Notes under the pieces: model-generated
What the model was told of the DNA's origin: nothing
Databases searched by the model: none
Seen by the model: only the letters and a program-made list of their open reading frames with translations
Position numbers and translations under genes: made by a program
In this document: one piece after another, positions 38,853 to 62,732 of the stretch
Layout of the letters: the number at the start of each line of letters is the position of its first letter
How positions within the stretch are numbered: position 1 is the first letter of the stretch
DNA from: Nonomuraea rubra
GTDB taxonomy: Bacteria > Actinomycetota > Actinomycetes > Streptosporangiales > Streptosporangiaceae
Reading direction: 5' to 3'
Length of the DNA: 64,000 nt
NCBI RefSeq assembly: GCF_014207985.1
Contig: NZ_JACHMI010000001.1
Coordinates: forward strand, 6,245,001 to 6,309,000

Positions 38853-41648
38853 TCAGGGAAGCTGCAGGTTCCTGAGCTGCCGGCGAGAGGTGACGTTGAG
38901 CTTGCGGAAGATGTTGCGCAGGTGGGCGTCGATCGTGCGCGGGCTCAGGAACAGCTGGGCGCCGATCTCACCGGAGGTGGCCCCGGTGGCCACCAGCCGG
39001 GCGATGAGCAGCTCCCGCGCCGTGAGCAGTTCCTGGGCGGTGCGCGCATCGGCCGGCTGGACCGTCCGCTTGCGCGGCTGCTCACCGGTGGCGCGCAGTT
39101 CGCGGGCGGCGCGTGCCGCGAACGCCTCCGCGCCCATGCCCGACAGCAGTTCGTGGGCGGTGCGAAGCTGCTCGCGGGCGTCCTGGCGGCGGCCTTCGCG
39201 GCGTAGCCATTCGCCGTAGACGAGGTGGGCGCGGGCCAGGTGGGTGGCCATCCGGCATTCGCTGAGCCGCTGGACGGCCTCGCGGTACAGGGCTTCGGCG
39301 GCCGGCCCGGTGCTGGTGAGCGCCCGCGAGCGTGCCTCCAGCCCGAGGGCCCACTGGGTGCCGCTGGCGCGGGCCCGCGGGCTGACCCGTTCCAGGGCGG
39401 CGGCCGCGCGGGCCGGCTGCCCGGCGCGCACCGCCGCCTCGATGAGCTCGTGCAGGGCGACGCTGCTGTTCGCCAGCTCGTCGTGCTCGCACGGCGGCGC
39501 CGCGGCGGCGAGCGCGTCGTCGTAGTTGCCCAGGCCGTTGTGCAGCACCGCCAGCGCGTACTGGCCCAGGCCGATCGTCGCGCCCTCGCCCCGCTCCGTC
39601 GCGTTGCGGACCATGGCGGCGTACAGCTCGGCGGTCTCGGGCTGCCGGCCGCGCCAGGCGGCGAGCGTGAGCCTGGCGTTGGGCAGCGGCGGGGCCCCGG
39701 TCGCCTGCGTGATCGCGTGCTCCTCGGCGACCAGCTCGGCGGCGCGGGCGAGCTCGCCGGTGTGCACGAGCACGGTGGCCAGGGCGTTGAGCGCGGCGGG
39801 AAGCGTGGCCAGCGCGCCCGCTTCGCGGGTGAGCCGGACGATGCGTCCGGCCAGCGCGTAGATCGCCTCGTCGTCCCACAACATGGCCGCGACGTGGCAG
39901 GCCAGCCACAGCCAGCGACGGTTGTCGTCCTCAGCCCGGGGCTCATGGCCGCGGAACATCCGCAGCGCCCGCTGCAGGCCGGGGGCGCTGGCTTCGTACC
40001 CTTGCGTGAACCTCGCGGCCAGGCCGTCGAGCAGGAGGTCGACCGGCCGTGGCGGCGTTGTGGGGGCGGGGGCGGTCTGGGCGGCTTCCGCCGCCTCCGG
40101 CAACCCTCGGCCGCGGCCGAGGCGACCGGCGTGGAAGGACGCCTCGATGGCCTGCAGGTAGGTCTCGCGGGACAGCGCGGCATCCAGCGGTGCGAGCATC
40201 TTGGCCGCGTCCAGCAGCATGCCGGGCACCTCGTTTCCCCGGATGGTGTGGAAGGCGATCTGGGCGCGCAGCACCTCGATTCGGGCGCGGTGCAGCGCGT
40301 CCGACGGCCCGTCCGCCGCGACCGTCAGCAGCTCCAGCGCGGCGTCCGGTGCGCCGGCCTGGTTCTTGGCCTGCGCGGCGGCCAGCGCCCGGCGCGCACG
40401 GCCGGCGGCGCCGGGGGTCAGCGCCACCGCTCGTTCCAGGAACGCGGCCGCGGCGGCCAGCCCGCCGCGGGCGCGTGCCCGCCCGGCCGAGCGCTCCAGC
40501 TCGGCGGCGGCTTCCTCGTCGCTGCCGAGCACCGCCTGCGCCCGGTGCCAGGCACGGCGGTCAGGGTCCGTCCGCGGGTCGGTGGCCTCGGCCAGCGCCC
40601 GGTGCACGCGCCGGCGCTCAGCCGGTACGGCGGCCCGGTAGACGGCCGAGCGCACCAGCGGATGCGAGAACCGCACCCGGGTGCCGATCTCCAGCAACCC
40701 CGCCGCCTCCGCCGGCGTGGCCGCCTCGGTGCCGATGCCCACGTACTCGGCGGCACGCCACATCAGGTCCGCATCGCCGACCGGTTCGGCCGCCGCGACC
40801 AGCAGCAGCAGCTGCGTGTCGGCCGGGAGGCCGGCCGACCGGTGCTGGAAACTCTGCTCGACCCGGCGCGGCACGTTCAGCGCGTCCGGCAGCCCGAACC
40901 CGCCCGCCAGCTTCGCCGGCTGCGCGCTCCGGGGCAGTTCCAGCAGCGCCAGAGGGTTGCCGCGGGCCTCGGCGATGATCCGGTCGCGCACCTGCTCGTC
41001 CAGCGGCGTCCTGACCGCTGTGGCCAGCAACGCCCGCGCGTCCGCGTCACTGAGCCCGCCCAGGCCCAGGTCCGGCAGCCGGCCGAACAGCTCGGTGCCG
41101 CCCGGGTCGGTGCGCGAGTCGCGCAGCGCGAACACCAGCGCCACCCGCTCGGCCTCCACCCGCCGGGCCACGAACCCGAGGGTCTGCGCGGAGACCTCGT
41201 CCAGCCACTGCGCGTCGTCCACCAGGCACAGCAGCGGCCGTTCCTCGGCGGCCTCGGCCAGCAGGCCGAGCACGGCCAGCCCGACCAGGAACCGGTCCGG
41301 CGGGTCACCGGCGCGCAGCCCGAACGCCACGCCCAACGCGGCCTGCTGCGGGCCGGGCAGCGCTGGGAGCCGGTCCAGCAGCGGCGCGCACAACTGGTGC
41401 AGCCCGGCGTAGGCGAACCCCGCCTCGGACTCGATGCCGGTCGCGTGCTCCACCCGGAACCCGGCCGCGGTGCCGCGGGCGTGCCGGAGCAGTGCGGTCT
41501 TGCCGATGCCGGCCTCACCGCGGATCACCAGCGCGCCGCTGCGCCCGGACCATGCCCTGCTGAGCAGCCGTTCGATCGCCTCGCGCTCGCCACGCCGCCC
41601 CAGGAGCGTCACCTGATTCTCCGGCGGGTGCCAGCCGGTGTCCGCCAC
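38853..41648 (-). CDS. Large LuxR family regulator with ATPase domain (LAL/MalT-like)
   Basis: The 931-residue protein starts at GTG 41648; the frame is open upstream but without homology. The N-terminal AAA/STAND ATPase has Walker A GEAGIGKT (residues 44-51), Walker B LLCLVDDAQWLD near 130 and a sensor-like ARGNPLALLELP near 225. A long helical TPR-like region follows (about 350-850). The C-terminal LuxR HTH is ATGATSGEIGAQLFLSPRTI with DAHLRNIFRKLNV. Such LAL regulators activate secondary metabolism or catabolic operons in actinomycetes. No obvious neighbouring target exists; the next minus-strand operon has its own ArsR control. Confidence 0.9.
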   Translation of the reverse strand: MADTGWHPPENQVTLLGRRGEREAIERLLSRAWSGRSGALVIRGEAGIGKTALLRHARGTAAGFRVEHATGIESEAGFAYAGLHQLCAPLLDRLPALPGPQQAALGVAFGLRAGDPPDRFLVGLAVLGLLAEAAEERPLLCLVDDAQWLDEVSAQTLGFVARRVEAERVALVFALRDSRTDPGGTELFGRLPDLGLGGLSDADARALLATAVRTPLDEQVRDRIIAEARGNPLALLELPRSAQPAKLAGGFGLPDALNVPRRVEQSFQHRSAGLPADTQLLLLVAAAEPVGDADLMWRAAEYVGIGTEAATPAEAAGLLEIGTRVRFSHPLVRSAVYRAAVPAERRRVHRALAEATDPRTDPDRRAWHRAQAVLGSDEEAAAELERSAGRARARGGLAAAAAFLERAVALTPGAAGRARRALAAAQAKNQAGAPDAALELLTVAADGPSDALHRARIEVLRAQIAFHTIRGNEVPGMLLDAAKMLAPLDAALSRETYLQAIEASFHAGRLGRGRGLPEAAEAAQTAPAPTTPPRPVDLLLDGLAARFTQGYEASAPGLQRALRMFRGHEPRAEDDNRRWLWLACHVAAMLWDDEAIYALAGRIVRLTREAGALATLPAALNALATVLVHTGELARAAELVAEEHAITQATGAPPLPNARLTLAAWRGRQPETAELYAAMVRNATERGEGATIGLGQYALAVLHNGLGNYDDALAAAAPPCEHDELANSSVALHELIEAAVRAGQPARAAAALERVSPRARASGTQWALGLEARSRALTSTGPAAEALYREAVQRLSECRMATHLARAHLVYGEWLRREGRRQDAREQLRTAHELLSGMGAEAFAARAARELRATGEQPRKRTVQPADARTAQELLTARELLIARLVATGATSGEIGAQLFLSPRTIDAHLRNIFRKLNVTSRRQLRNLQLP

Positions 41649-41829
41649 CCATCCCCCCAACCGAGCCCTCCGCACCAGACCAGGCGATTGCCCATCACAG
41701 AGTAGGGGAGGTTCGCCGAGGCGAACCGCCCCCGTCCGCCGGCCCGGCCGAGGCCGGCCTGACGGCTCGGCTGCCGTACAACCTGAAGCGTTCCCGATTC
41801 GTGATCTGGATCCAGGATGATCGCGCGTC

Positions 41830-42651
41830 ATGAAGCAGACGATCATCGGCGCCGCCGCGGGCGCCGCCCTCCTGTTAACCGCCACGCCCGCCGTGGCCGC
41901 CCCCAAGGACCCGCTCGCGGCGCTGCGGGCGCAGCTCGCGGCGGGCAAGGGCGTGTCGTTCTCGTTCCGCATGTACGGTGAGTCCGCGCTCCTCACCCAG
42001 ACCGGCCGCCTGCAGTTCGGCAAGAAGGGCATCGCGGCCTCCGACGTCACCGGCAAGCTCGCCACCGGCGACGATAAGCCGGCCGACGACTTCGGCGGCG
42101 GCGACGAGCCGAACGGCCTGGCCGCCGCCATGGGCAAGCCGGAGCGCACGATCCGCATCGGCCGGACGTCCTACGTCAGCGGCGGCCCGATGAGCGCGGG
42201 CCTGCCCGACGGCAAGACGTGGTTCAAGCAGTCGCCGGGGTGGACGAGCGGCATGACCTCCATGTTCGGCGGCTTCGTGAACGCGGCCGACCCGAGCACG
42301 TTGAAGGTGCTGCTGGCACGCTCCAAGCGGAGCGGGTCGGCGTACAAGGGGTCGATGAGCGTCAAGGACCTGCTGAAGGCCTCGGACTGGTCCCGCGCCA
42401 CCATGTGGTGGAAGCTCGACTCCAGCGTGAAGGTGAACTGGACGCTCGCCGTCGGCTCCTCGGGCCTGCCGGTCAAGCTGACCACGCGGCTGGAGAGCGC
42501 GAAGGCGGGCGTGAGCAAGACCGCGATGGAGATGCGCTACACCAGGTGGGGCACCAAGGTCTCGATCAAGGCCCCGCCCGCGAGCACGGTGACCACCAAG
42601 CTCGACCCGGACAAGTCCACGCTCCAGCTCCCCCCGGCGCCCAAGCGCTGA
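41830..42651 (+). CDS. Secreted protein, LppX/LprG-like fold possible
   Basis: The 273-residue product has a Sec signal peptide (MKQTIIGAAAGAALLLTATP then AVAAP, cleavage near residue 23). The mature part is soluble: VSFSFRMYGESALLTQTGRL, IRIGRTSYVSGGPMSAGLPD, WTLAVGSSGLPVKLTTRLES and FSFRMYG-type beta strands. The order of features (a TGRL strand, a thin TSYV strand, a GKTWFK segment and a C-terminal AMEMRYTRWG) resembles actinobacterial lipoprotein-like LppX/LprAFG folds, but without a lipobox. Its function is unknown. It is divergent from the LuxR gene (181 bp gap with no clear operator). Confidence 0.75.
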   Translation: MKQTIIGAAAGAALLLTATPAVAAPKDPLAALRAQLAAGKGVSFSFRMYGESALLTQTGRLQFGKKGIAASDVTGKLATGDDKPADDFGGGDEPNGLAAAMGKPERTIRIGRTSYVSGGPMSAGLPDGKTWFKQSPGWTSGMTSMFGGFVNAADPSTLKVLLARSKRSGSAYKGSMSVKDLLKASDWSRATMWWKLDSSVKVNWTLAVGSSGLPVKLTTRLESAKAGVSKTAMEMRYTRWGTKVSIKAPPASTVTTKLDPDKSTLQLPPAPKR

Positions 42652-42681
42652 CCACGACCCGACGCCGGGGGGATCGCCTCG

Positions 42682-44001
42682 TCAGGCGAGCGGCCGCTCG
42701 CCCAGCCCCAGATCGGTCCCCTTGGGCTCCTTGACCGCCGTGACGGCCGCCAGGGAGATCACGCAGAGCACCATGATGTAGGCGCCGACGGACAGAGCCG
42801 ATCCCGTGCCCTGCACCAGGGCCTGGGCGATCGTGGGGGCGAAGGCGCCGCCCAGGATGGCGCCGAGCGCGTAGCCGATGGCGACGCCGGAGTAGCGCAC
42901 CGAGGCGGGGAACATCTCGGCGTACATCGCCGACATCGGCCCGTACGACAGCCCGAGCCCGATGGTCAGGACGATGATCGCCAGCGTGAAGAGCCAGATG
43001 TCGCGGGTCTCCATCAGTAGGAAGAGCGGGATCATCCAGGCGAACACGAGCGCGTACCCGATCTGGAAGGTGCGCACCCGGCCGATCCTGTCGGACAGCA
43101 CCCCGCCGTACAGGGTGAAGACCAGCCAGCCGATGGAGCCGGCGACGGTGGCGAGCAGGACCGACGGCCGGGGCAGGCCCAGCGTGGCGGTGCCGTAGCT
43201 GATGAAGTAGGCGATGATCAGGTAGCCGGCGGCGTTGTTGGCCACGAAGATGAGCGCGGTGAGCAGCACGTTGCGGGTGTGGCCGCGGAACAGGTCGCGC
43301 AGCGGCGCGGCGGAGGTCCTGGTGCGCTGCTGCAGCTCCTTGAACACGGGGCTCTCCTCGACGGCCCGCCGCACGAGGTAGCCGAGAACGATCAGGGTCA
43401 GGGAGAGCAGGAACGGAACCCGCCAGCCCCACGCCTGGAATTGCTCCGGCGTGGTGACCGTACTCATGATCCACAGGACGCCGGTCGCGAGGATGAGGCC
43501 GATCGGCACGCCGATCTGGGGGAAGGCGCCCCACCAGCCGCGGCGCTCGCGGGGCGCGTGCTCCACCGCCAGCAGGGCGGCGCCGCCCCATTCGCCGCCG
43601 GCCGAGAAGCCCTGGAGGATGCGCAGGAGGATGAGCGCGATGGGCGCGGCCACGCCGATCGTCTCGTAGGTGGGCAGCAGGCCGATGAGGGTGGTGGCCG
43701 CGCCCATGAGGAGCAGGGTCAGCACGAGCATGCGCTTGCGTCCGAGGCGGTCGCCGTAGCGGCCGGCGATGATCGCGCCGAGGGGCCGGAACAGGAAGCT
43801 GATGCCGATCGTGGCCAGCGAGATGAGCGTGGCCAGGCCGGGGGCCCGCTCGTTGACCGGCGCCAGGAAGAGCGGGCCGAACACCAGGCCGGCGGCCTGG
43901 GCGTAGATGAAGAAGTCGTACCACTCGATGGTGGTGCCGGCCAGGGTGCTGGCCAGGACCTTGCGGTCGTCGCGGGTCATGGTGCGTGGTTCGCTCGTCA
44001 C
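42682..44001 (-). CDS. MFS transporter, metabolite:H+ symporter family
   Basis: Twelve-helix secondary transporter of 439 residues. The start region STLAGTTIEWYDFFIYAQAA is the MHS-family signature (proline/betaine, KgtP, shikimate and MhpT-like carriers). GRYGDRLGRKRMLV is the loop 2-3 motif, and RILQGFSAGGEWGGAALLAV and GVLSDRIGRVRTFQIGYALV are further family motifs. It probably imports an organic acid or osmolyte with protons. The GTG start overlaps the stop of a 65-codon frame upstream; ATG 43980 is another possible start. Confidence 0.88.
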   Translation of the reverse strand: MTSEPRTMTRDDRKVLASTLAGTTIEWYDFFIYAQAAGLVFGPLFLAPVNERAPGLATLISLATIGISFLFRPLGAIIAGRYGDRLGRKRMLVLTLLLMGAATTLIGLLPTYETIGVAAPIALILLRILQGFSAGGEWGGAALLAVEHAPRERRGWWGAFPQIGVPIGLILATGVLWIMSTVTTPEQFQAWGWRVPFLLSLTLIVLGYLVRRAVEESPVFKELQQRTRTSAAPLRDLFRGHTRNVLLTALIFVANNAAGYLIIAYFISYGTATLGLPRPSVLLATVAGSIGWLVFTLYGGVLSDRIGRVRTFQIGYALVFAWMIPLFLLMETRDIWLFTLAIIVLTIGLGLSYGPMSAMYAEMFPASVRYSGVAIGYALGAILGGAFAPTIAQALVQGTGSALSVGAYIMVLCVISLAAVTAVKEPKGTDLGLGERPLA

Positions 44002-44195
44002 GTGGGGGCTCCGTTCCTTGCTGCGGGGGGTCGGGTGGCGCGTTCGAGCTCATAGGGGTGCGTGACGGGCTCGACCACCTCCGCGACGGCGCCCAGGTCG
44101 CCGGGGTCGAAGGCGTGGTCGACCCGGCGCATCAGCGCGACGATCTCCTCCGCACACCAGGCGTACCCTTCGACGTCGGCCGGGTCGAACACCAT
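43998..44195 (-). CDS. Small 65-residue protein coupled to the MFS gene
   Basis: From ATG 44195 the frame reads MVFDPADVEGYAWCAEEIVA, then RRVDHAFDPGDLGAVAEVVE and HPYELERA, with normal amino acid composition. Its TGA overlaps the GTG of the transporter (GTGA), the arrangement of coupled genes. The frame remains open upstream (to about 44290), so it might be the 3' end of a longer, truncated gene. I do not recognise the family. The function may relate to the transported substrate. Confidence 0.45.
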   Translation of the reverse strand: MVFDPADVEGYAWCAEEIVALMRRVDHAFDPGDLGAVAEVVEPVTHPYELERATRPPAARNGAPT

Positions 44196-44320
44196 GCTGA
44201 AGCGCGGGTTCCCCGCTGAGGCATGCCCGGCGACCGCGGCGTCGAACCGGTGAGCGCCAGGATGCCGCGCAGCGCGACCGCCTGCCGGGCGGCAGGTCCG
44301 TGCGGGCGCATACGTGGCGT

Positions 44321-47068
44321 TCAGCGCAGTGTGGGCACCGCCCCGCCGCCGGCGCGCTCGACCGTCACGCCGGGCAGGTCCCCGGCCCACCGGCCGGCGA
44401 TCCCGGCCAGCCGCTCGGCCGACGGCGGCGTACGGCCCAGCCCGATCGCGTACCGGGCGTGCCCGGGCCCGCTGTCGAACGGCCGCGGCCAGGCATGCAC
44501 GTCCGCCACCCCGGCCTCCTCCAGGGCGCCGATCAGCTCCAGCATCCGCCCCCTGACCCGGCCGAGCAGCACGTCCAGCTCCGCCGAGCGCACGGTCACC
44601 ACCGCCCACGCCGCGTGCCGCCGGTGCAGCGGCGGCGGCGCGGCCAGCTCGGCGGAACGGCCGTCCTCCACCAGCTCCCAGGCCCGGTACAGCTCCTGGG
44701 TGAGCAGCTCCAGCCCGCCGGCGGTGACCTGGCGGGCGCAGTTGCGCACGGGCGCGCTCGGCGTCAGCACCACGACGGGCGCCGGCTCAGCAACAGCAGC
44801 AGCAGGGCCGAGGCCGATCGGGTCCCGCCAGTTCCACGCGGCCCACGTCCCGAAGAACCGGCTCAGCGGGTCACCGCCGCCGTGCACGGTCCGCGCGGCC
44901 ATGACCGTCCAGGCCAGGCCGGGAAGCCCGCCGAACGGGGCGGAGTCCAGCCCGCGCGCCCGCGCCCACGCCTTCACCTGCCTGGCCAGACGAGCGAAGC
45001 GCTCATGGTCGTCGCCGGCCGCCGCGCGGACGGCGACCGCGTCGCTCACCGCGCTCAGCGCGGTCGCCGCCGCCAGGCCCAGCTCGGCCCGCCGATCGAC
45101 GGCCCGCGACGGCGGCACCGAGCCGGACGGCACCACGGTCAGATCCACGTCCAGCCGGCCCGTACGCAACCGCAGGCCGGGCACCCGGGCACCCACCACC
45201 CGCCGCACCCTGGAACTCCCCGGCAGCGCCGCGCGGACCAGCGCCTCGACCTCGGCCAGATCCGGTTCGCCCGGCAGCACCACCACCAGGTCCAGATCCG
45301 CGCCCGGCAGCTCGCACCCCATCCGCCGCGACCCCGCGACATGCACCACCCCGGGCGCCAGCACCTCCTCCAGCCGCCGCAGCACCCCTTCGGAACCGGC
45401 GACCGGCGCGTTCCCCTCGGCCACCGCATCAGGCAGCCACCGCAGCTCACCCGTGCCCAGCGTGACCCGGGCCCGCGCACGCATCGGCTCATCACCCCGC
45501 CGCGACAGCAGCACCAGCTCCCCCACCCGCGCCGGCATCGCCGCCACCCGCAGGGGATCCTCGGTACGCCCGAGCGTCAGATGCGGGGTGTACCCCTCGG
45601 GACGCCCCCCGCACCGGGGGAACCGCCGCCGCAACGCCTCGTGCAGCCGCTCCCACGGAGCAGGATCGGCGGCGGCCGGATCGAGCCACGCCGTCACATG
45701 ATCACGATGACGGAACACCCGCACCCCCTCCAGCCTCGCCTCGAACGGCCCCACCTCGGCCGCCGCCGCGGCCAGCAACGGCGCCGCCGCCTCGAACTCC
45801 GACTCCGGCACGAACCCGAAGAGCAGGTTGACGTGCGGCGGCCACCGGCGGACCTGCGGATCACGCGCCTGGCGCACCTCCTGGATCGCCGGCCACAGCT
45901 CGTCCGGCGGGAGCCACGCCACCGCCGTCCGCGCCGTCGGCGCCACGTCGAGCACCCCGCGCTCCCCGGCCGCACCCGTGAGGTCGAGCACCGCCTCCAC
46001 CGCGAAATGATCGGAAATGTACAGCCCCGCCGGATCCGGCGTGTCACCCCGCAACGCCGCCGAAACCACCCGCGGCCTGCCCCGCAGCAGGATCCGGTCC
46101 AGCCGCGCCGCCCGCCCGGACCGCGACGACAGCGCCGCCAGCGGGTTGACGGCCGGATCGAACGTCGGCGTCCCGTCGGGCCCGTACGCCTCCGCCCACG
46201 CGTCCCGCAGGCCGAGCGCCGCCGCCGGGGTGTCCGTGCCGTCGTTGAAGTCGCCCGCCAGGACCACGTCGCCGTCCACGCCGGCCAGCCCCTCGGCGAT
46301 CGCGGCCAGCTCGGCCCGCCGCCTCGCCGCGCCGTCGGCCGAATGATCGCTGGTCAGATGGGTGACCGCGACCGTGACAGGCCCGGCGGCGCTCTCCACC
46401 ACGACGGCGGCCACCGCCTTGTGCGGGCCCAGCTCGTGCCGCGCCGCCTCCCGCACGGGCAGCCGGCTGAGCAGCAGCAGCCCGCCGTCGTCCACGTCCG
46501 TGCCGTACGGGTCGGTGCCGAGCGTGTACCCCTCCCGCACCCAGGGGGCGGCCAGCAGCATCGACAGCAGCGCGGGCTCGACCTCCTGCAGCGCGATCAC
46601 GTCCGCGCCGGACTCCCGCAGCGCCGCGAGCAGCAGCGGGCGCCGGCGGGCGGTGTCGATGCGGTCGCTGTCGTAGCGGTCCCACAACGTGTTCCACGTC
46701 AGGACGCGCACCTCCGCCCGCGCGCCGGGCCCGCCCCCGGCGGCGGGACGCCAGCCGCCCGCCGCGTCCCAGGCGTGCGGGGTCGAGGCCGTGAAGAACG
46801 GCGGGCGCAGCAGGCGCGCCTCCCGCGCCCGGCCCGCCTCGCAGGTGTCGAGCCGGTCGAGCCCCGTGGCCCGGTCCCACACCAGCTCGCCGTCCGCCTC
46901 GACGAACAGCACCCGGTGCCAGGGAATGTCCCCTCCCGGCGTGAACGCGGCCAGCGCGACCCGCTTGGGAGCGGCCTCACGCTGGCCGACCCCCATGACG
47001 AACCGGGACGCGTCGAACCTCGCATCCCAGCGGATCCGGTGGTAGATCTCCTCGCTGGTCCGCATCAT
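44321..47068 (-). CDS. Multidomain RNA end-processing protein (MJ1316-EEP-2H-nucleotidyltransferase)
   Basis: Protein of 915 residues from ATG 47068, overlapping the ligase stop (ATGA). Residues 1-75 resemble the MJ1316/DUF504 domain ([38 protein letters not shown]). Residues about 119-360 form an endonuclease/exonuclease/phosphatase domain: [18 protein letters not shown] (Glu162), THLTSD (His237), GDFND (272-276), SDHF (352-355). Residues about 385-545 form a 2H phosphoesterase: HVN (412) and HLT (496). Residues about 550-650 form a nucleotidyltransferase: VAGSRRMG (579), D591/D593, third acid D642. A PAP/OAS-like helical domain and a short final domain (about 830-915) follow. All catalytic residues are intact. 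With the coupled ligase-kinase it should heal broken RNA ends, including 2',3'-cyclic phosphates. Confidence 0.85.
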
Positions 47069-48795
47069 GCCTCCCGCTCGGCCAGCACGCCGTCCACGTC
47101 CTCGACCGTCCCGCGCGCCCCGACGTACCACGTGCGATGGGCCTGGCCGGGATACGGCGGCACGAACCGGCGCGCCTGCCCGGCCAGCACGTGCGCGGGC
47201 ACCGGATGGGCGCGGCCGGCGTTGCGCCGGTGCAGCTCGTCCTCCTCCACCAGCAGCACCGCGTGCGTCGTCAGCGCGTCACGGCGGCGCGCCACGCCGC
47301 CGGCCAGGCCACGCTGGTGCGGGGTGAGCGAGGTGGCGTCCCACACCACCGTGCCACCGGCCGCCAGGGCGGCGTCGAGCCGGTCCAGCGCCTGGCCGAG
47401 CACCTCCTGGTTCGCCCGCTGATCCGACCGCGAACCGCGCGCCTCGCGCAGGTCGTCCAGCGACACGTACGCGTCGATCCCGCTCAGCCCCGCCGCGAAC
47501 GTGCTCTTCCCGCTGCCCGACGGCCCCGCCAGCTGCACCAGCCGGGGAAACCGCCCGGCCCGCCACCGCCACGTCGCCGCCACGGCCTCCCCGGCCGTGG
47601 CGAGCCTGCCCCGTACCCAGGCCTCGCGCGCCTCCGCCCAGCACCGGTCGGCCACCTCCGCGCCCAGCCCGGCCAGCTCCGCACGCAACCCCGCCCGTAA
47701 CGGCCCCAGCGGGTCCGGGCCGAGCAGCCCGGCCTCCTCGGCATGCAGCGCCGACCACTCGACCTGCTCCCGCGCCTCGCCGTCGAGCCCGCCCGCCGGA
47801 ACGGACGCCGCGACCGCATGCAGCACCCCCAGATCGGCCGCCAGCGCCATCCGCCGCAACCCGGTCTGCCGCTCCTCATCAGGAAACGGGCGGCGCAGCC
47901 CGCCGTGCAACCCCACCACGTCCGCCACCCGCCGGGCCGCCGCCATGCCCAGCGGCCCCGCCAGCCGCGCCGCCACCCAGGCCCGCGGCCGGGCGTGCAG
48001 CACCGCCGCCAGCACCCCCGCCAGCCGCGCGTCCCCCCACCGCCCGATCGCGTCCAGCCGGGCCGCCACCTCAGCCGCCACCCCCGACCCCGCCTCGATC
48101 GAGGTCTCGACGCCCAGCGCGGCCAGCAGAGCACCCGCGTCCGGAGCCGCCCCGGACCGCACCGACCACAGCGCCGCCCCCGCTCCCAGCCCGTTCGGCA
48201 CCACCGCGGCGTGCATCCAGTGCGTCCCCGTCCGCACGTGCTCCGGCCGCACCCACTTGGCCACCCGCCCCGCGAACTCCTCCCGCCCGAACCCGCCGGC
48301 GGCCCGCACCACGTACCCTTCCTGCCGCTCCGGATCCAGCCGCAGCCCCCGCAGCGCCCGCTCGTCGAACACGCCACGCCACAACACCGGCGGCACCGGA
48401 ATCCCCAGCCCCCGCAAGAAGGCGACCGTCCGATCCCAGTCCAGGCAACGATCGCCGTCCCACACCGAGAACCCGTAGAACCAGCTCTCCAGCCCCTGGT
48501 AGGCGATGGAATGGCGGGCGAACACGTTCTCCCCGCACACCCGCCACCCCGCCGGGATCCGCCCGCCGATCCGCCCCTGCAGGCCCTTCACCCACGCCCG
48601 CGACGGATGATGACCCGAGTCCAGCGACCGGGCATGCAGCCCGTCCGCGTACAGCGTGGTGTTCTCCCCGTCGAGCTTCTCCGTCACCACGACCTCACGC
48701 CCGCGCAACCCCGACAGATCACCCGCACGGACATCGTCAGGGCTCACCCCGGGCGACCACGGCAGGTGAGAGGTACGCGGATACTGCACGCGCAT
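47065..48795 (-). CDS. RNA ligase fused to polynucleotide kinase
   Basis: The 576-residue protein starts at ATG 48795 after GGGGGAGGGG. The N-terminal ligase domain has motif [11 protein letters not shown] (nucleophile Lys40), motif III-like [11 protein letters not shown] (88-90) and FYGFSVWD (106-113), motif IV EGYVVR (159-164) and motif V AKWVR (179-183), the RNA ligase (Rnl) pattern. A helical region of unknown role follows (about 190-415). The C-terminal P-loop kinase has GPSGSGKST (424-432) and [13 protein letters not shown], typical of T4 Pnkp-like RNA kinases. It should phosphorylate 5'-OH ends and seal them. It overlaps the end-processing gene by four bases. Confidence 0.88.
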
Positions 48796-48874
48796 GATCC
48801 CCTCCCCCGGCCGGCCGGAGATCACTGTACAAGCGCCGCGACCAGCCCCTCCAGCCAATAAACCGGGCGACCCC

Positions 48875-50626
48875 TCACACCGGATCCTTGATCTCGCAGA
48901 CCACCGCGCCAGCCGCCACCACGGCCCCCACCGCGGCCGCCATCCCGACCACGACCCCGTCCTTGTGCGCCGTGAGCGGCTGCTCCATCTTCATGGCCTC
49001 CAGCACCACGACGGTGTCACCCGCCGCCACACTGTCACCGTCGGCGGCGACCACCTTGACGATCGTCCCCTGCATCGGACTGACCAGCGCGTCTCCACCA
49101 CCCGCCGCAGGCGCCGCCGCCTTCCTGACCCGGCGGCCGGCCGCGGCCTTCGGCGCGCCCCCGCCCCCGCCGAGCCCGGCCGGGAGCACGACCTCCAGGC
49201 GCTTGCCCGCCACCTCCACGGTGACACGCTCCCGCCGCACCGCCTCGCCCTCCGCGACAGGCCCGGCGTAGGGCGGGATCCGGTTGTCGAACTCGGTCTC
49301 GATCCACCGCGTGTGAACCGCGAACGGCTCGGCCGTGAAAGCCGGCTCGCTCACGACGGCCCGGTGAAACGGCAGCACCGTCGGCATGCCCTCCACCTCG
49401 AACTCCGCCAGCGCACGGCGGGCACGCTGCAACGCCTGCTCCCGGGAAGCACCGGTGACGACCAGCTTGGCGACCAGCGAGTCGAAGGCACCCGGCACCG
49501 ACTCGCCCACCTCGTACCCGCTGTCGAGCCGGACACCGGGCCCGGAAGGGGCACGCCAGCGCGTGATCGTCCCCGGAGCGGGCAGGAACGAACGCCCCGG
49601 ATCCTCGGCATTGACGCGAAACTCGATGGAATGCCCGCGCGGCGCCGGATCGTCATACCCCAGAGGCTCCCCCTCGGCGATGCGGAACATCTCGCGGACA
49701 AGATCGATCCCGGTCACCTCCTCGGTCACCGGATGCTCCACCTGAAGCCGGGTGTTGACCTCCAGGAACGAGACCGTGCCGTCCTGACCCACCAGGAACT
49801 CACACGTACCCGCCCCGACATATCCGGCCTCACGCAGGATCGCCTTGGACGACTCACGCAGCAGCACCTCCTGCTCCCGCGTGAGAAACGGCGCAGGAGC
49901 CTCCTCCACCAGCTTCTGGTGACGCCGCTGCAGCGAACAGTCCCGGGTGGAGACCACGACCACGTCGCCGTGGACATCCGCCAGGCACTGCGTCTCCACA
50001 TGACGAGGACGATCAAGATAACGCTCGACGAAACACTCACCCCGGCCGAACGCGGCCACCGCCTCACGGACGGCACTGTCGTACAGGCCGGGAATCTCCT
50101 CCAGCGAACGCGCCACCTTCAGCCCACGCCCGCCACCACCGAACGCCGCCTTGATCGCAACCGGCAACCCGAACCGTTCCGCGAACGCCACCACCTCGCC
50201 CACATCCGCCACCGGATCGGACGTCCCGGCGACCAGCGGCGCACCGACCTTCTGCGCGATGTGCCGGGCCCGCACCTTGTCACCCAGCGCCACGATCGCG
50301 GACGGAGGCGGGCCGATCCAGACCAGACCCGCGCCGATCACCGCCTCGGCGAAAGCGGCGTTCTCGGCCAGGAAACCGTAACCGGGATGCACGGAATCAG
50401 CCCCGGAACGAGCGGCCACCTCCAGCAGCTTGGCGACGTCCAGGTAGGTACCGGCAGGCGACTGCCCATCCAGCGCGTACGCCTCATCGGCCAGGCGCAC
50501 GTGCAACGCGTCCCGATCCGGATCGGCGTACACGGCCACGCAACCGATCCCGGCATCCCGGCACGCCCGCACCACCCGGACGGCGATCTCCCCCCGATTG
50601 GCGACCAGCACCTTACGCAGACTCAC
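48875..50626 (-). CDS. Acyl-CoA carboxylase alpha subunit (biotin carboxylase plus BCCP)
   Basis: Carboxylates biotin with ATP and bicarbonate and carries it to the carboxyltransferase. The 583-residue product from GTG 50626 (GGGAGGA five bases before) has the biotin carboxylase start [20 protein letters not shown], the ATP-grasp loop [13 protein letters not shown] near 165, [20 protein letters not shown] near 285 and a C-terminal biotinyl domain with EAMKMEQPL (Lys biotinylated). It resembles AccA/PccA alpha chains of actinomycete complexes. Its start overlaps the epsilon-subunit stop (GTGA). Confidence 0.93.
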
Positions 50627-50802
50627 AACCGTCCTCCCACACTCCATCGCGACTCCCGCCAACCGCCCGGCCCCGGCACGACAGGACGCCGCAACACGCG
50701 GCGCGCCACGGGCAACGGCGCCGGCGCCCGCCGCACGGCCCGCAGCGCCACCACGAGAGCAGCCAGTTCCTCGGCCGTCGGAGAACCCTTGACGATCTTC
50801 AC
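50623..50802 (-). CDS. Acyl-CoA carboxylase epsilon subunit
   Basis: Small protein of 59 residues, below normal gene-finder limits. It begins [20 protein letters not shown], the usual N-terminal helix of AccE/PccE proteins ([12 protein letters not shown]), and continues with a Pro/Arg-rich stretch and WSVGGRL. The GTG start overlaps the stop of the carboxyltransferase gene and its TGA overlaps the alpha-subunit GTG, so the three genes are fully coupled. In actinomycetes this subunit stabilises or activates the alpha6-beta6 complex. Confidence 0.85.
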
Positions 50803-52328
50803 AGCGGGATGTTCCCGTGCTTCTTCGGCGGCAGCACATCACGCTTGCCACGCAGCAACCGCAACGCCCGGACCACCTCGCGCCGCGTCTCACCAGGCCG
50901 GATCACCTTGTCCACGTAACCGCGCTCCGCCGCCAGATACGGGGTGGCCAGCGTGTCGTCGTACTCCGCGACCAGCTCGGCCCGCAGCGCGTCCGGATCA
51001 TCGGCGGCGGCCAGCCGCTTGCGATGCAGGATGTTCACCGCGCCCTGCGCCCCCATGACCGCGATCTGCGCGGTGGACCACGCCAGGTTGACGTCCGCAC
51101 CCAGGTGCTTGGACCCCATCACGTCGTACGCGCCGCCATAGGCCTTGCGCGTGATCACGGTCACGAGCGGAACGGTCGCCTCACCGTAGGCGTACAGCAG
51201 CTTGGCACCCCGCCGGATGATCCCGTTCCACTCCTGCCCCGTACCGGGCAGGAACCCCGGCACATCCACCAGCGTCAGCACCGGAATGCTGAACGCATCG
51301 CACGTGCGCACGAACCGGGCCGCCTTCTCCGAGGCGTCGATGTCCAGCGTGCCCGCCAGCCGCAACGGCTGGTTCGCCACCACCCCGACCGGCCGGCCCT
51401 CCACCCGCCCGAAACCCACCACGATGTTCGGCGCGAACAGCTCCTGCACCTCCAGGAACTCACCGTCGTCCACCAGCGCGCCGATCACCTCCAGCATGTC
51501 GTACGGCTGGTTCGGCGAATCCGGGACGAGCCTGTCCAGCGCCGGATCATCCGCCAGATCCACCTCCACATGCGGATACGACGGCTCATCGAGGTTGTTG
51601 TCCGGCAGGTACGCCAGCAGCGCCCGCGCGTAGTCGAGCGCGTCGTCCTCATCGGAGGCCAGGTAGTGGGCCACGCCGCTGCGGCTGTTGTGCACCCGGC
51701 CGCCACCCAGGTCCTCGAACGTCACGTCCTCGCCCGTCACCGTCCTGATCACGTCCGGGCCCGTGACGAACATGTGCGACTGCTCATCCACCATGATCGT
51801 GAAGTCGGTCAGCGCGGGCGAGTAGACATGGCCGCCCGCGCACGCGCCCATGATGAGCGAGATCTGCGGGATCACCCCCGACGCGCGGATGTTCCGGCGG
51901 AAGATCTCCCCGTACAGGCCGAGCGAGACCACACCCTCCTGGATCCGCGCGCCCGCCCCCTCGTTGATCCCGACGATCGGGCAGCCGTTGCGCACCGCAA
52001 GATCCATCACCTTGCAGATCTTCTGCCCGTACACCTCACCCAGCGAGCCCCCGGCCACCGTGAAGTCCTGCGAGAACACGCACACCTGACGGCCGTCCAC
52101 CGTCCCGTACCCGGTCACCACCCCGTCCCCGTAACCGAGCGACCCCCTCGCCAGAGCATCCAGCTCCACGAACGAACCCTCGTCCAGCAACCGCTCGATC
52201 CGCTCCCGCGCGGTCAACCGGCCCCTGGCGTGCTGCTTGGCCGCCGCACGCGCCTCACCGACATGCACCGCCTCATCCAGGCGCTCCTTGAGACGGGCCA
52301 GACTGCCCGCGGTGTCCTGCGCTGCCAT
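50799..52328 (-). CDS. Acyl-CoA carboxylase beta subunit (carboxyltransferase)
   Basis: Transfers the carboxyl group from biotin to acetyl- or propionyl-CoA, giving malonyl- or methylmalonyl-CoA. The 509-residue product starts at ATG 52328. Family signatures are [80 protein letters not shown] and the C-terminal [20 protein letters not shown]. The Asp in the HLGADV region is the residue linked to acetyl versus propionyl preference in this family, but I cannot call the substrate safely. It is the first gene of the beta-epsilon-alpha operon, divergent from a TetR gene. Confidence 0.93.
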
Positions 52329-52349
52329 CCACCACCACCGATAGGACTC

Positions 52350-52369
52350 AGTACCAAAATCACGGTACT
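52350..52369. promoter_or_regulatory. Candidate operator between accD-type gene and TetR gene
   Basis: AGTACC (52350-52355) and GGTACT (52364-52369) flank AAAATCAC. ACTCAGT occurs twice in the same region (52346-52352 and 52367-52373). The site is centred between the two divergent starts, so it could control both. Confidence 0.55.
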
Positions 52370-52408
52370 CAGTTTCGTCCGGGTTGAACACCCCCGAATC
52401 CCGGGAGA

Positions 52409-53092
52409 ATGACCCCTGTGCCGAAACCGCCCATCAAACACCGCCTCGCCGAAGCCGCCGTGGCACTCTTCGACGAGAACGGCTACGACGCCACCACCGT
52501 CGACGACATCGCGGCACGCGCGGGCGTCAGCCGCAGCACCTTCTTCCGCCACTACCGCTCCAAGGAAGACGCCATCTTCCCCGACCACGACGCACTGCTC
52601 GACAAGATCGACGCACGACTCCGCGCATCCACCGCCGGCACCGCCATCGCCGCCATCACCGACGCCGTCCGCATCGTGCTCGCCCACTACGTCGACGACG
52701 CCGAGGTCTCACTCCGCCGCTACCGCCTCGTACGCCAGGTCCCCGCACTCCGCGACCGCGAGATCGCCAGCGTCGCCCGCTACCAGCGGCTCTTCCGCGA
52801 GTTCGTCGGCACCTGGCTGGGCGACACCCCCGACGCCGGGCTACGCGCCGAACTCATGGCCGCCTCCGTCGTCGCCGCCCACAACCAGGTCCTGCGCGGC
52901 TGGCTGCGCGCCGGCGGCACGTACGATCCCTCCGACCGGCTCGACCACGCCCTCGGCTACGTCATCGCCACCTTCCGCCACCTCGAACAGCCGCAGGAGG
53001 ACGAACAGATCGTGGTGGCCACCTTCAGCCGCGCCGCGACCCCCCAGGCCGTCATGGCGGCCATCCAGCAACATCTGTCTGGCAGCGTCTGA
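52409..53092 (+). CDS. TetR family regulator, probably of the carboxylase operon
   Basis: The 227-residue protein has the [23 protein letters not shown] with [20 protein letters not shown], followed by a helical TetR_C domain ([34 protein letters not shown]). ATG 52409 directly follows GGGAGA; GTG 52418 has better spacing to it and is an alternative. It is divergent from the acyl-CoA carboxylase genes. By analogy with fatty acid regulators of actinomycetes (FasR and similar), an acyl-CoA may be the effector, but this is inference. Confidence 0.87.
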
Positions 53093-61376: not shown

Positions 61377-62732
61377 TCAGTGCCCGGGGCCGCCGCTGAC
61401 GAGCGGCAGCCACAGGACGAACCTGGCGCCGCGCGGCGAGTCCTCGACGGTGAGGGTGCCGTGGTGGGAGTGCGCGATGTCGCGGGAGATGGCCAGGCCG
61501 AGGCCGCTGCCTCCGGGGTCGCGGCGGCGACCCTCGTCGAGGCGGACGAAGCGTTCGAAGACGCGTTCCCGGTGGGCGGGCGGGATGCCCGGCCCGTCGT
61601 CGGTCACGGTGACCACGACGCCCTCGTCTGCCGGTTCGACGCCGACCTCGACGGAGGACTCGGCGTGCCGCTGGGCGTTGGTCAGGAGGTTGTCGAGCAC
61701 GCGGATCAGTTGCATGCGCGAGCCGCGGATCTCCAGCCCCCGGGGCGCGCGGACGTGGATCGGGAGGGGGCCCTGCTGCGCGTTCACCTCGGCGCAGACG
61801 AGCTCGCCGAGATCGATGCGTTCGGGAGGTGAGGGGTCGGCGGCCCGGAGGCGGGCGAGCAGCAGCAGGTCGTTGACGATCGCCTCCAGCCGGCTCGCCG
61901 TGGCCAGCGCGCTGCGCAGCGTCTCGTGCGGATCGACGTCCCCGGGGTAGAGCAGTGCCTCCTCCAGTTGCGTGCGCAGCCCGGCGATCGGATTGCGCAG
62001 CTCGTGGCTGGTCGTGGAGTCGAACTGGCGCAGCTGCTCCACCGCGCCCTCCAGCTGGCTGAGCGTGTGGTTGGCGGTGGTGGCCAGGCGGGTGATCTCG
62101 TCGTTGCCCGGCGGCACCGGGACGCGCAGGCTCAGGTCGCTCACCGTGATCTGCGAGATCCTGGCCCTGATCGCCTCGACGGGCCGCAGCGCGCGTCCCA
62201 CCAGCACCCACGCCGTCCAGGCCGCCAGGCCGGTGAACAGGGCGGTCCCGGCCGCGACGGCGTACTCGAGCTCGTGCGTGGCCAGCAGGTCCGGCTCGGG
62301 GATGCCGGCGTACACGACGGCCGCGTCCGTGTCCGGGGACAGGCGGATGGCGTGCAGCAGGATGCACCTGCCCTGCGGCGGGCACTCGACGTGCGGCTGG
62401 AACCGCGCGTCCGGCGGCGGCCGCAGGCTGCTGAGCGGCACGGTCCGCGAGGCCTCCCGGCTGGCGTTCAGGACACGATGGCGGGCGTCCACGACCTGGA
62501 TGAGATCGACGGGCGGGTTGGCCGGGATCGGGTTCGGCACGTAACCCTCGCGGGCGACCGGGCTCCACTGGCTCGCCACCCGCTCGGCCTGGCGCAGGGC
62601 GTCGGACTGGACCCGCCAGCGGATCGCGAGGTCCACGGTCGCGCCGAGCACCACCAGCACGCACATCGCGAACAGGGCCGCGATCAGCGTGCACCTGGCC
62701 CGGACCGAACCCGGGCGGGCAAGGGTGAGCAT
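61377..62732 (-). CDS. Sensor histidine kinase (orphan)
   Basis: The 451-residue kinase has a transmembrane helix (CTLIAALFAMCVLVVLGATV), an extracellular sensor (about 40-150) with ECPPQGRC, a second helix (AGTALFTGLAAWTAWVLVGR), HAMP (ALRPVEAIRARISQ), the H-box FDSTTSHELRNPIAGL near residue 245, the N-box DNLLTNAQRHAESS and the G boxes VTDDGPGIPP and GGSGLGLAISRDI. It is a complete HisKA/HATPase kinase. Its response regulator, normally immediately upstream on the same strand, is missing; the next gene upstream is formaldehyde dehydrogenase. It may act with a distant partner or be left over from a deletion. Confidence 0.88.
   Translation of the reverse strand: MLTLARPGSVRARCTLIAALFAMCVLVVLGATVDLAIRWRVQSDALRQAERVASQWSPVAREGYVPNPIPANPPVDLIQVVDARHRVLNASREASRTVPLSSLRPPPDARFQPHVECPPQGRCILLHAIRLSPDTDAAVVYAGIPEPDLLATHELEYAVAAGTALFTGLAAWTAWVLVGRALRPVEAIRARISQITVSDLSLRVPVPPGNDEITRLATTANHTLSQLEGAVEQLRQFDSTTSHELRNPIAGLRTQLEEALLYPGDVDPHETLRSALATASRLEAIVNDLLLLARLRAADPSPPERIDLGELVCAEVNAQQGPLPIHVRAPRGLEIRGSRMQLIRVLDNLLTNAQRHAESSVEVGVEPADEGVVVTVTDDGPGIPPAHRERVFERFVRLDEGRRRDPGGSGLGLAISRDIAHSHHGTLTVEDSPRGARFVLWLPLVSGGPGH

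Follow-up and report, generated by a model that had tools for sequence, protein, structure and literature searches.

The 64,000-nucleotide stretch of Nonomuraea contig NZ_JACHMI010000001.1 analyzed here (positions 6,245,001 to 6,309,000; hereafter, the window) belongs to a 12.9 Mb genome and contains, between window positions 44321 and 48795, two overlapping genes, denoted A and B, that probably encode a two-protein RNA repair cassette. An earlier note, made from the sequence alone, had described the pair in these terms, and both genes are present where it placed them. The features of the pair are as follows.

47065..48795, reverse strand: gene A, 576 amino acids (aa), with RNA ligase, all-helical middle domain and polynucleotide kinase (open reading frame, Pfam, alignment, model)
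48187..48795, reverse strand: RNA ligase domain, residues 1-203 of A (PF09414, E = 4e-33)
47554..48186, reverse strand: middle domain, about residues 204-414 of A, all-helical, no Pfam match
47068..47553, reverse strand: polynucleotide kinase domain, residues 415-576 of A (AAA_33, PF13671, E = 5.8e-20)
44321..47068, reverse strand: gene B, 915 aa, with MJ1316, EEP, 2H and poly(A)-polymerase-type nucleotidyltransferase (open reading frame, Pfam, alignment, model)
46871..47065, reverse strand: MJ1316 domain, residues 2-66 of B (PF04457, E = 2.1e-18, 67.2 bits against a cut-off of 26.3)
46007..46702, reverse strand: EEP phosphohydrolase domain, TDP2-like, residues 123-354 of B (Exo_endo_phos, PF03372, E = 4.4e-21)
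45524..45910, reverse strand: 2H phosphoesterase domain, residues 387-515 of B (2_5_RNA_ligase2, PF13563, E = 5.3e-33)
44324..45358, reverse strand: poly(A)-polymerase-type nucleotidyltransferase, about residues 571-915 of B, with palm, central and RNA-binding-like parts (PAP_central, PF04928, and profile)

The profile search proposed in the earlier note recovered six Pfam domains in A and B, all above the cut-offs, with significant matches to both the ligase and the kinase profiles. The junction of the two genes reads gcATGATGcg, where the first ATG of B creates the ATGA overlap that the note described and the second a TGATG overlap. The ATGA is indeed there, but because the other full-length B homologues aligned, one excepted, begin at the second ATG (MRTSE), a start of B at 47065, with the TGATG overlap, is likelier. 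Relatives of both proteins are numerous (at E ≤ 0.001, 1,275 for B and 1,388 for A, out of some 8,000 candidates scored for either protein), the closest named B protein being that of Nonomuraea rubra (97%). The database names of such proteins are ‘RNA ligase family protein’, ‘RNA repair domain-containing protein’ and ‘poly(A) polymerase’; the last of these, assigned automatically to B, may mislead.

Conservation was counted over 80 loci, the best of the 236 B relatives that one scan of genome contigs retrieved. A is present in 76 of these 80 loci and is cut by the contig end in eight of the 76; the ligase motifs were counted in the 66 to 68 loci that have sequence there. The ligase domain scores 115.4 bits against a cut-off of 27 and contains motif I (K40-L-D-G-E-N), motif IV (E159-G) and motif V (K180-W-x-R183); K40, D42, G43 and N45 are kept in 66 of 66 loci with sequence there, and E159, K180 and R183 in 68 of 68. 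In the kinase domain, K430, S431, D447, R450 and R524, which we presume to correspond to positions of T4 polynucleotide kinase, are invariant (76 of 76), and D448 and R523 vary. The structural model of A predicts a polynucleotide kinase (PNK) fold, that is, a P-loop kinase with the Asp and Arg of PNK and a lid Arg. The all-helical middle domain is modeled with predicted local distance difference test (pLDDT) scores of 59-91 (blocks of ten) and matches nothing relevant, HD included, in Pfam at E ≤ 10. Its location between ligase and kinase, comparable to the HD domain of ligase/HD-Pnk pairs, the length of about 210 residues and an ‘LLHD’-like string in some homologues had suggested a degenerate HD domain, an idea left unproven with Pfam HD absent and an hhalign probability against HD of 0.6%; of the 69 loci whose sequence covers the His position of the string, only 57 have His.

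The residues of the four parts of B are unchanged or nearly so across the 80 loci. W14, D15, P49, H51 and R52 of MJ1316 are found in all 80 and R13 in 75. For the EEP domain, TDP2 is the nearest match in sequence and, among the matches listed for the model, in fold; the earlier note had called it a nuclease or phosphatase, and while the EEP assignment stands, by fold and by metal and catalytic residues, a phosphohydrolase is, given the likeness to TDP2, the better guess. Both histidines of the 2H motifs (H412-V-N and H496-L-T) are present in 80 of 80 loci; against the expected H-x-[ST], the third residue of motif 1 is N in 75 loci and T in five, and that of motif 2, T in 49 and S in 31, conforms. 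PAP_central is detected with E = 1.1e-6 (28.8 bits against a cut-off of 27.1). The nucleotidyltransferase palm stays below the Pfam cut-offs with a single sequence, and a profile of 24 homologues compared with solved poly(A) polymerases reaches E = 8e-32 (poly(A) polymerase gamma). Its catalytic aspartates are D591 (80 of 80), D593 (78 of 80) and D642 (79 of 80). At the positions of Y224 and N226 of yeast poly(A) polymerase, which contact ATP in the adenine pocket, all 80 loci have D708 and A710. With both pocket residues replaced, the apparently altered nucleotide pocket argues against simple polyadenylation by B. The catalytic residues, previously said to be all intact, are thus nearly invariant, with the reservations that 2H motif 1 reads H-V-N and that two pocket residues differ. 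TDP2 and poly(A) polymerase folds are predicted in the model of B, and the fold match lists, filled by these two parts, leave MJ1316 and 2H out; in the lists for A the kinase takes up the room, to the exclusion of the middle domain, and no RNA ligase is among the matches listed. The comparison did not use the ligase part of the model, which has low pLDDT.

The two genes constitute a real cassette, which is spread patchily through Nonomuraea, Streptomyces and other actinomycetes: in 76 of the 80 loci B directly follows A on the same strand, with a gap of -14 to 7 bases in 75 and of 50 in one. In a sample of 120 genomes of the family, 19 contain A and 20 contain B, and A never occurs without B. 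In a class sample of 296 genomes, A is found in 13 and B in 15, two of which (G550 and G623) match only an MJ1316+2H or a 2H stretch. A adjoins B in every A-bearing genome of the two samples (19 of 19 and 13 of 13), which share seven genomes and include one genome with A split over two contigs (G374) and one with only an end of A matched (G391). Within the genus, 15 of 39 genomes have B and 24 lack it. In a phylum sample of 296 genomes, 31 show some match to A, and full-length A was found only in the genome under study and one other (G023). The pair behaves as a unit in the 76 coupled loci, but B also exists without A, hence the unit is not obligate. In one member of the genus (G699:C6:412297-414123), B matches residues 1-332 and 683-914 only, and the end of EEP, the 2H domain and the nucleotidyltransferase palm seem to have been lost.

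The domain composition of B varies among its relatives. By precomputed Pfam assignments, nine of the 120 homologues listed for the polymerase part (755-785 aa) have no 2H domain and keep MJ1316 and EEP, and for at least one of these (Streptomyces sp. NBC_01808) an A homologue is also listed, on a contig of equal length; judged by domain content, 2H is dispensable in some relatives. Three others of the 120 (595-683 aa) lack EEP by the same assignments. One of these, P0259, has a partial EEP match (E = 7e-4). Streptomyces sannanensis, the source of one of the three, has a full-length copy as well, and the other two lie on short contigs. There are also small proteins that match MJ1316 and 2H only, with similar stretches on plasmids, an arrangement that would tie MJ1316 to cyclic ends.

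We propose, with a probability of about 0.6, that A and B form a two-protein cassette that heals, rebuilds and seals broken RNA. The domains, the kinase, EEP and polymerase folds, the intact catalytic residues, the coupling and the co-inheritance of the two genes are what the analysis shows, and they make a two-gene RNA repair cassette the best-supported reading, one that the earlier note had right in outline. By their domain content, the two proteins would together hold what is needed to turn a break with 2',3'-cyclic phosphate and 5'-OH ends into a sealed strand. We infer the following reactions and their order, and a structured RNA as the target, for instance a tRNA cut by a metal-independent ribonuclease. 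The MJ1316 domain of B would bind RNA with a 2',3'-cyclic phosphate end, and the 2H domain would open the cyclic phosphate, giving a monophosphate. This phosphate would be taken off by the TDP2-like EEP domain, a putative metal-dependent phosphohydrolase that would act alone where 2H is missing, and a free 3'-OH would be left. Lost nucleotides, one or several, would next be restored by the polymerase-type domain, whose specificity is probably not for plain adenine. This step is the most distinctive one; in PMC7824862, repair-linked nucleotidyltransferases replace nucleotides lost with the cut, and a precedent for an EEP phosphatase that works ahead of a poly(A) polymerase is ANGEL2 with MTPAP (PMC9525292). 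The kinase of A would phosphorylate the 5'-OH of the other fragment, and its ligase would self-adenylate on K40 and join the 3'-OH to the 5'-phosphate.

Several observations weigh against this scenario. The ligase part of the A model has pLDDT mostly below 50, and a phmmer search with this part found no solved structure at E ≤ 1. In the kinase, D448 of the DD pair is variable (55 D, 12 E, 8 G and 1 S of 76), and O-phosphoseryl-tRNA kinase matches the fold equally well. B stands without A in four of the 80 loci and in genome G311, and on a Calothrix conjugative plasmid (AP018209.1) the full B layout has no ligase among three neighboring proteins by Pfam, so B would not everywhere work toward sealing. 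No toxin, nuclease or defense gene recurs beside the pair in the 23 of 40 neighbor families tested over 80 loci, where small toxins could be missed. Finally, each of the 20 family genomes with B also encodes RtcB and accordingly has a sealing route for such ends already. RtcB occurs in 108 of the 120 family genomes (20 of 20 with B versus 88 of 100 others, Fisher p = 0.21), and the genome under study has four matches. A role of the cassette as a replacement for RtcB was ruled out, RtcB being present in 20 of 20 B-bearing genomes. In Catellatospora sichuanensis (L156, 16382-17632, reverse strand), an RtcB-like frame, judged by eye from its start only, lies about 3.5 kb from B.

A special case of repair by the cassette is that it provides toxin resistance or counter-defense, mending tRNA or rRNA cut by the nucleases of competitors or by host nucleases that phages trigger; we regard this as a realistic possibility that falls short of even odds. 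The patchy presence (15 of 39 genus and 20 of 120 family genomes) and variable site of the cassette agree with it, as do the sharing of the ligase with large phages and the role described for like systems in PMC7824862 and PMC4411300. The ligase domain of A is the one part of the pair with phage relatives: they were found in 30 phage records (41-53% identity across 35-36% of A for the 20 listed) and on 82 viral contigs, the 80 kept at 31-53% identity, with 79 of the 82 hits in open frames of 212-384 aa. A PNK-like frame lies within the fetched flanks of 10 of these 80 viral loci, whose frames gave no match to profiles of the middle domain, MJ1316, EEP, 2H or polymerase; no close relative of B was seen on viral contigs in a scan aimed at close relatives only. 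In PMC7824862, ligase, PNK, phosphoesterase and nucleotidyltransferase are partners in phage RNA repair; this, like the viral ligases and PNK-like frames, also supports the repair reading itself.

The gene neighborhood speaks against such a specialization. Our survey of it used simple GC-frame gene calls, omitted frames below 80 aa and missed B itself in 11 of the 80 loci. Forty-two families recur in at least five loci, two of them being A and B; 23 of the 40 others were tested (20 against Pfam, 20 against PADLOC), and the remaining 17, mostly of ribosomal-protein size and order, as well as rarer neighbors, lay outside the survey. The families tested comprise translation factors, dehydrogenases, transporters, regulators and glycosidases, with no toxin among them. 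The neighbors that match PADLOC are two ABC-transporter-type ATPase frames and a WYL regulator, all generic, and one weak match, and no model of PADLOC-DB 2.0.0 matches A or B at E ≤ 0.01. The statement in the earlier note that no toxin adjoins the pair holds for the window by Pfam, and the link to toxins or phage defense that it nevertheless drew found no backing in the neighbor families or in PADLOC.

More tentatively, B could be a self-contained rebuilder of 3' ends that recognizes and strips the cyclic-phosphate end and resynthesizes the missing nucleotide or nucleotides by its poly(A)-polymerase-fold domain, with an evolutionarily changed choice of nucleotide, while A, or a separate ligase and HD-kinase, seals. 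In the same tentative vein, such rebuilding would restore RNAs from which a residue has been cut out, as by RloC-like nucleases. The loci with B and without A support a 3'-end role of B's own, to which ANGEL2 followed by MTPAP offers a eukaryotic parallel (PMC9525292). Searched in full, the five B-only genomes gave no A, only distant kinase or ligase relatives. Three of the five (G311 and two Catellatospora) encode elsewhere a ligase of 261-262 aa followed by an overlapping HD-kinase of 373-386 aa (L181, 4992-6885; L171, 1435-3367; L172, 33-1965), with Pfam RNA_ligase, HD and AAA_33 in two of the three pairs; none was seen in the two B-only Streptomyces genomes. The HD-kinase is present in seven of the 120 family genomes, none of which has A, and a mutual exclusion of A (19 genomes) and HD-kinase (seven genomes) that we considered is explained by chance (Fisher p = 0.6).

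It appears unlikely that B serves 3'-end clean-up and tailing, marking or maturing RNAs, with A as a merely co-transcribed ligase-kinase. The B-only loci just described, the Calothrix B with no ligase at its side and the name ‘poly(A) polymerase’ that NCBI gives to many members would fit this role, and it has a precedent in animal mitochondria, where, according to PMC9525292, the EEP phosphatase ANGEL2 makes an end that the poly(A) polymerase MTPAP extends. However, the corresponding domains of B are fused in one protein, the EEP domain is nearest to TDP2, with ANGEL2 not seen among the solved-fold matches listed for B, and a ligase-kinase is coupled to it in 76 of 80 loci; furthermore, the pocket residues are replaced in all 80 actinomycete loci, and three of the five B-only genomes have the other ligase and kinase pair elsewhere.

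Slightly more doubtful still is a route like that of Trl1, where 2H would leave a 2'-phosphate, the ligase would join ends with this phosphate, KptA/Tpt1 encoded elsewhere would clear it from the junction, and EEP would serve another type of end. The Trl1 of fungi and plants combines ligase, kinase and 2H for the same ends in one chain, and the same order runs here across A and then B; the differences are the division into two proteins, the additional EEP, MJ1316 and polymerase domains, and a ligase that matches PF09414. KptA/Tpt1 (PF01885) is found in 16 of 20 B-bearing genomes versus 47 of 100 others in the family (Fisher p = 0.007, uncorrected for relatedness), which is a hint only. Conversely, KptA is missing from four of the 20 B-bearing genomes, and 2H from the nine homologues noted above, for at least one of which an A homologue is listed. 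Finally, an ordinary RNA metabolism pair with no repair role, for example in tRNA maturation, or a decaying remnant is improbable: 14 Streptomyces copies do lie near rpsJ in a housekeeping region and G699 has lost the middle of B, but maturation by the pair is not essential because it is absent from 24 of 39 genus genomes, and the residues are too well kept for general decay.

By sequence and gene order, the pair differs in layout from the known characterized systems. A close parallel is the Rnl/HD-Pnk pair of Catellatospora sichuanensis (L171), an overlapping two-gene arrangement with the ligase first, whose ligase is 30% identical to that of A over 262 columns (BLASTP, E = 2e-16) and whose kinase is 32% identical over 134 (E = 2e-8). 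Here, in contrast, ligase and kinase form one chain with no detectable HD domain, and healing would reside in a second protein with MJ1316, EEP, 2H and polymerase; HD-Pnk pairs, of the Runella type, use HD. The Pnkp/Hen1 and Pnkp1/Rnl/Hen1 systems have, according to PMC4411300, a methyltransferase and another phosphatase, whereas A and B add a polymerase and MJ1316. By Pfam, neither a methyltransferase nor a metallophosphoesterase was found in A or B, the search for Hen1 being confined to these two genes, and the bacter_Pnkp NCBIfam model scores 38 bits with the pair against a cut-off of 750. The RtcB route deals with the same 2',3'-cyclic phosphate and 5'-OH ends (PMC7824862) by an unrelated ligase, and there is no PF01139 match in A or B. 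The Calothrix plasmid protein (991 aa) has the same order of Pfam domains as B and 31.9% identity over residues 4-600, and differs from it in having no adjacent ligase and in a polymerase pocket where Tyr and Asn are still the canonical ones. A Dynamin_N protein encoded near it (L165, 11531-14290, reverse strand) shows a SLATT match below the threshold and is of a kind met in defense settings. A 2016 review by Burroughs and Aravind reportedly surveys such RNA repair systems. The layout may already be in print there; the literature searched, which did not cover that review, contained no description of or experiment on the pair.

The surroundings of the pair vary between loci. Relatives of the flanking genes in the window are rare at the other loci: the carboxylase and regulator genes were found at none of the 80, and the transporter at one, with 40% identity. 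An operon with the upstream acyl-CoA carboxylase genes was rejected on this count (0 of 80), chance neighbors being the better reading; the flanks compared reached 10 kb at most and were in some cases truncated where the contig ended, and N. rubra, the nearest kin, was not among the loci. At 14 loci, all from Streptomyces (L094, L109, L111, L112, L114, L119, L123, L126, L129, L132, L133, L137, L144 and L146), rpsJ (S10, by Pfam) precedes the pair on the opposite strand at a distance of about 0.3-5 kb; EF-Tu (tuf) lies downstream on the opposite strand at nine loci, and at seven the pair sits between rpsJ and tuf. A WYL regulator family is present at five of the 80 loci (for example, L131, 6282-7265, reverse strand), too distant and too infrequent for a link; WYL factors may sense cyclic-phosphate RNA, according to PMC9503650.

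The GC content is 76.7-77.4% in window positions 44001-48000 versus 70-72% on either side; the third-position GC of A and B (0.92 and 0.91) is lower than that of the MFS gene (0.97), relative to which the first two codon positions carry the excess. Neither a sigma-70-like promoter nor a terminator was detected in 48700-48960, a result of little weight in a high-GC actinomycete, and Rfam at gathering scores gave no match in 42000-53000. A 65-aa frame at 44195-43998 (reverse strand), with no Pfam match, ends in overlap with the GTG start (44001) of the MFS transporter. An AAA/LuxR-type regulator frame (38853-42158, reverse strand, by Pfam) overlaps a 273-aa frame on the forward strand (41830-42651) that by eye looks secreted; the true start of the regulator is probably inside the frame called. 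The window contains a single tRNA, tRNA-Arg(CCG), at 61481-61575 on the forward strand.

If read rightly, the pair gives many actinomycetes, in addition to RtcB, an ATP-dependent RNA repair route that is complete with two proteins. Were the proposed role of the built-in polymerase true, it could restore lost nucleotides, so that bacterial repair would regain sequence and not just rejoin ends. Whether RNA repair in bacteria brings back sequence in addition to continuity could then be asked with no more than two purified proteins.

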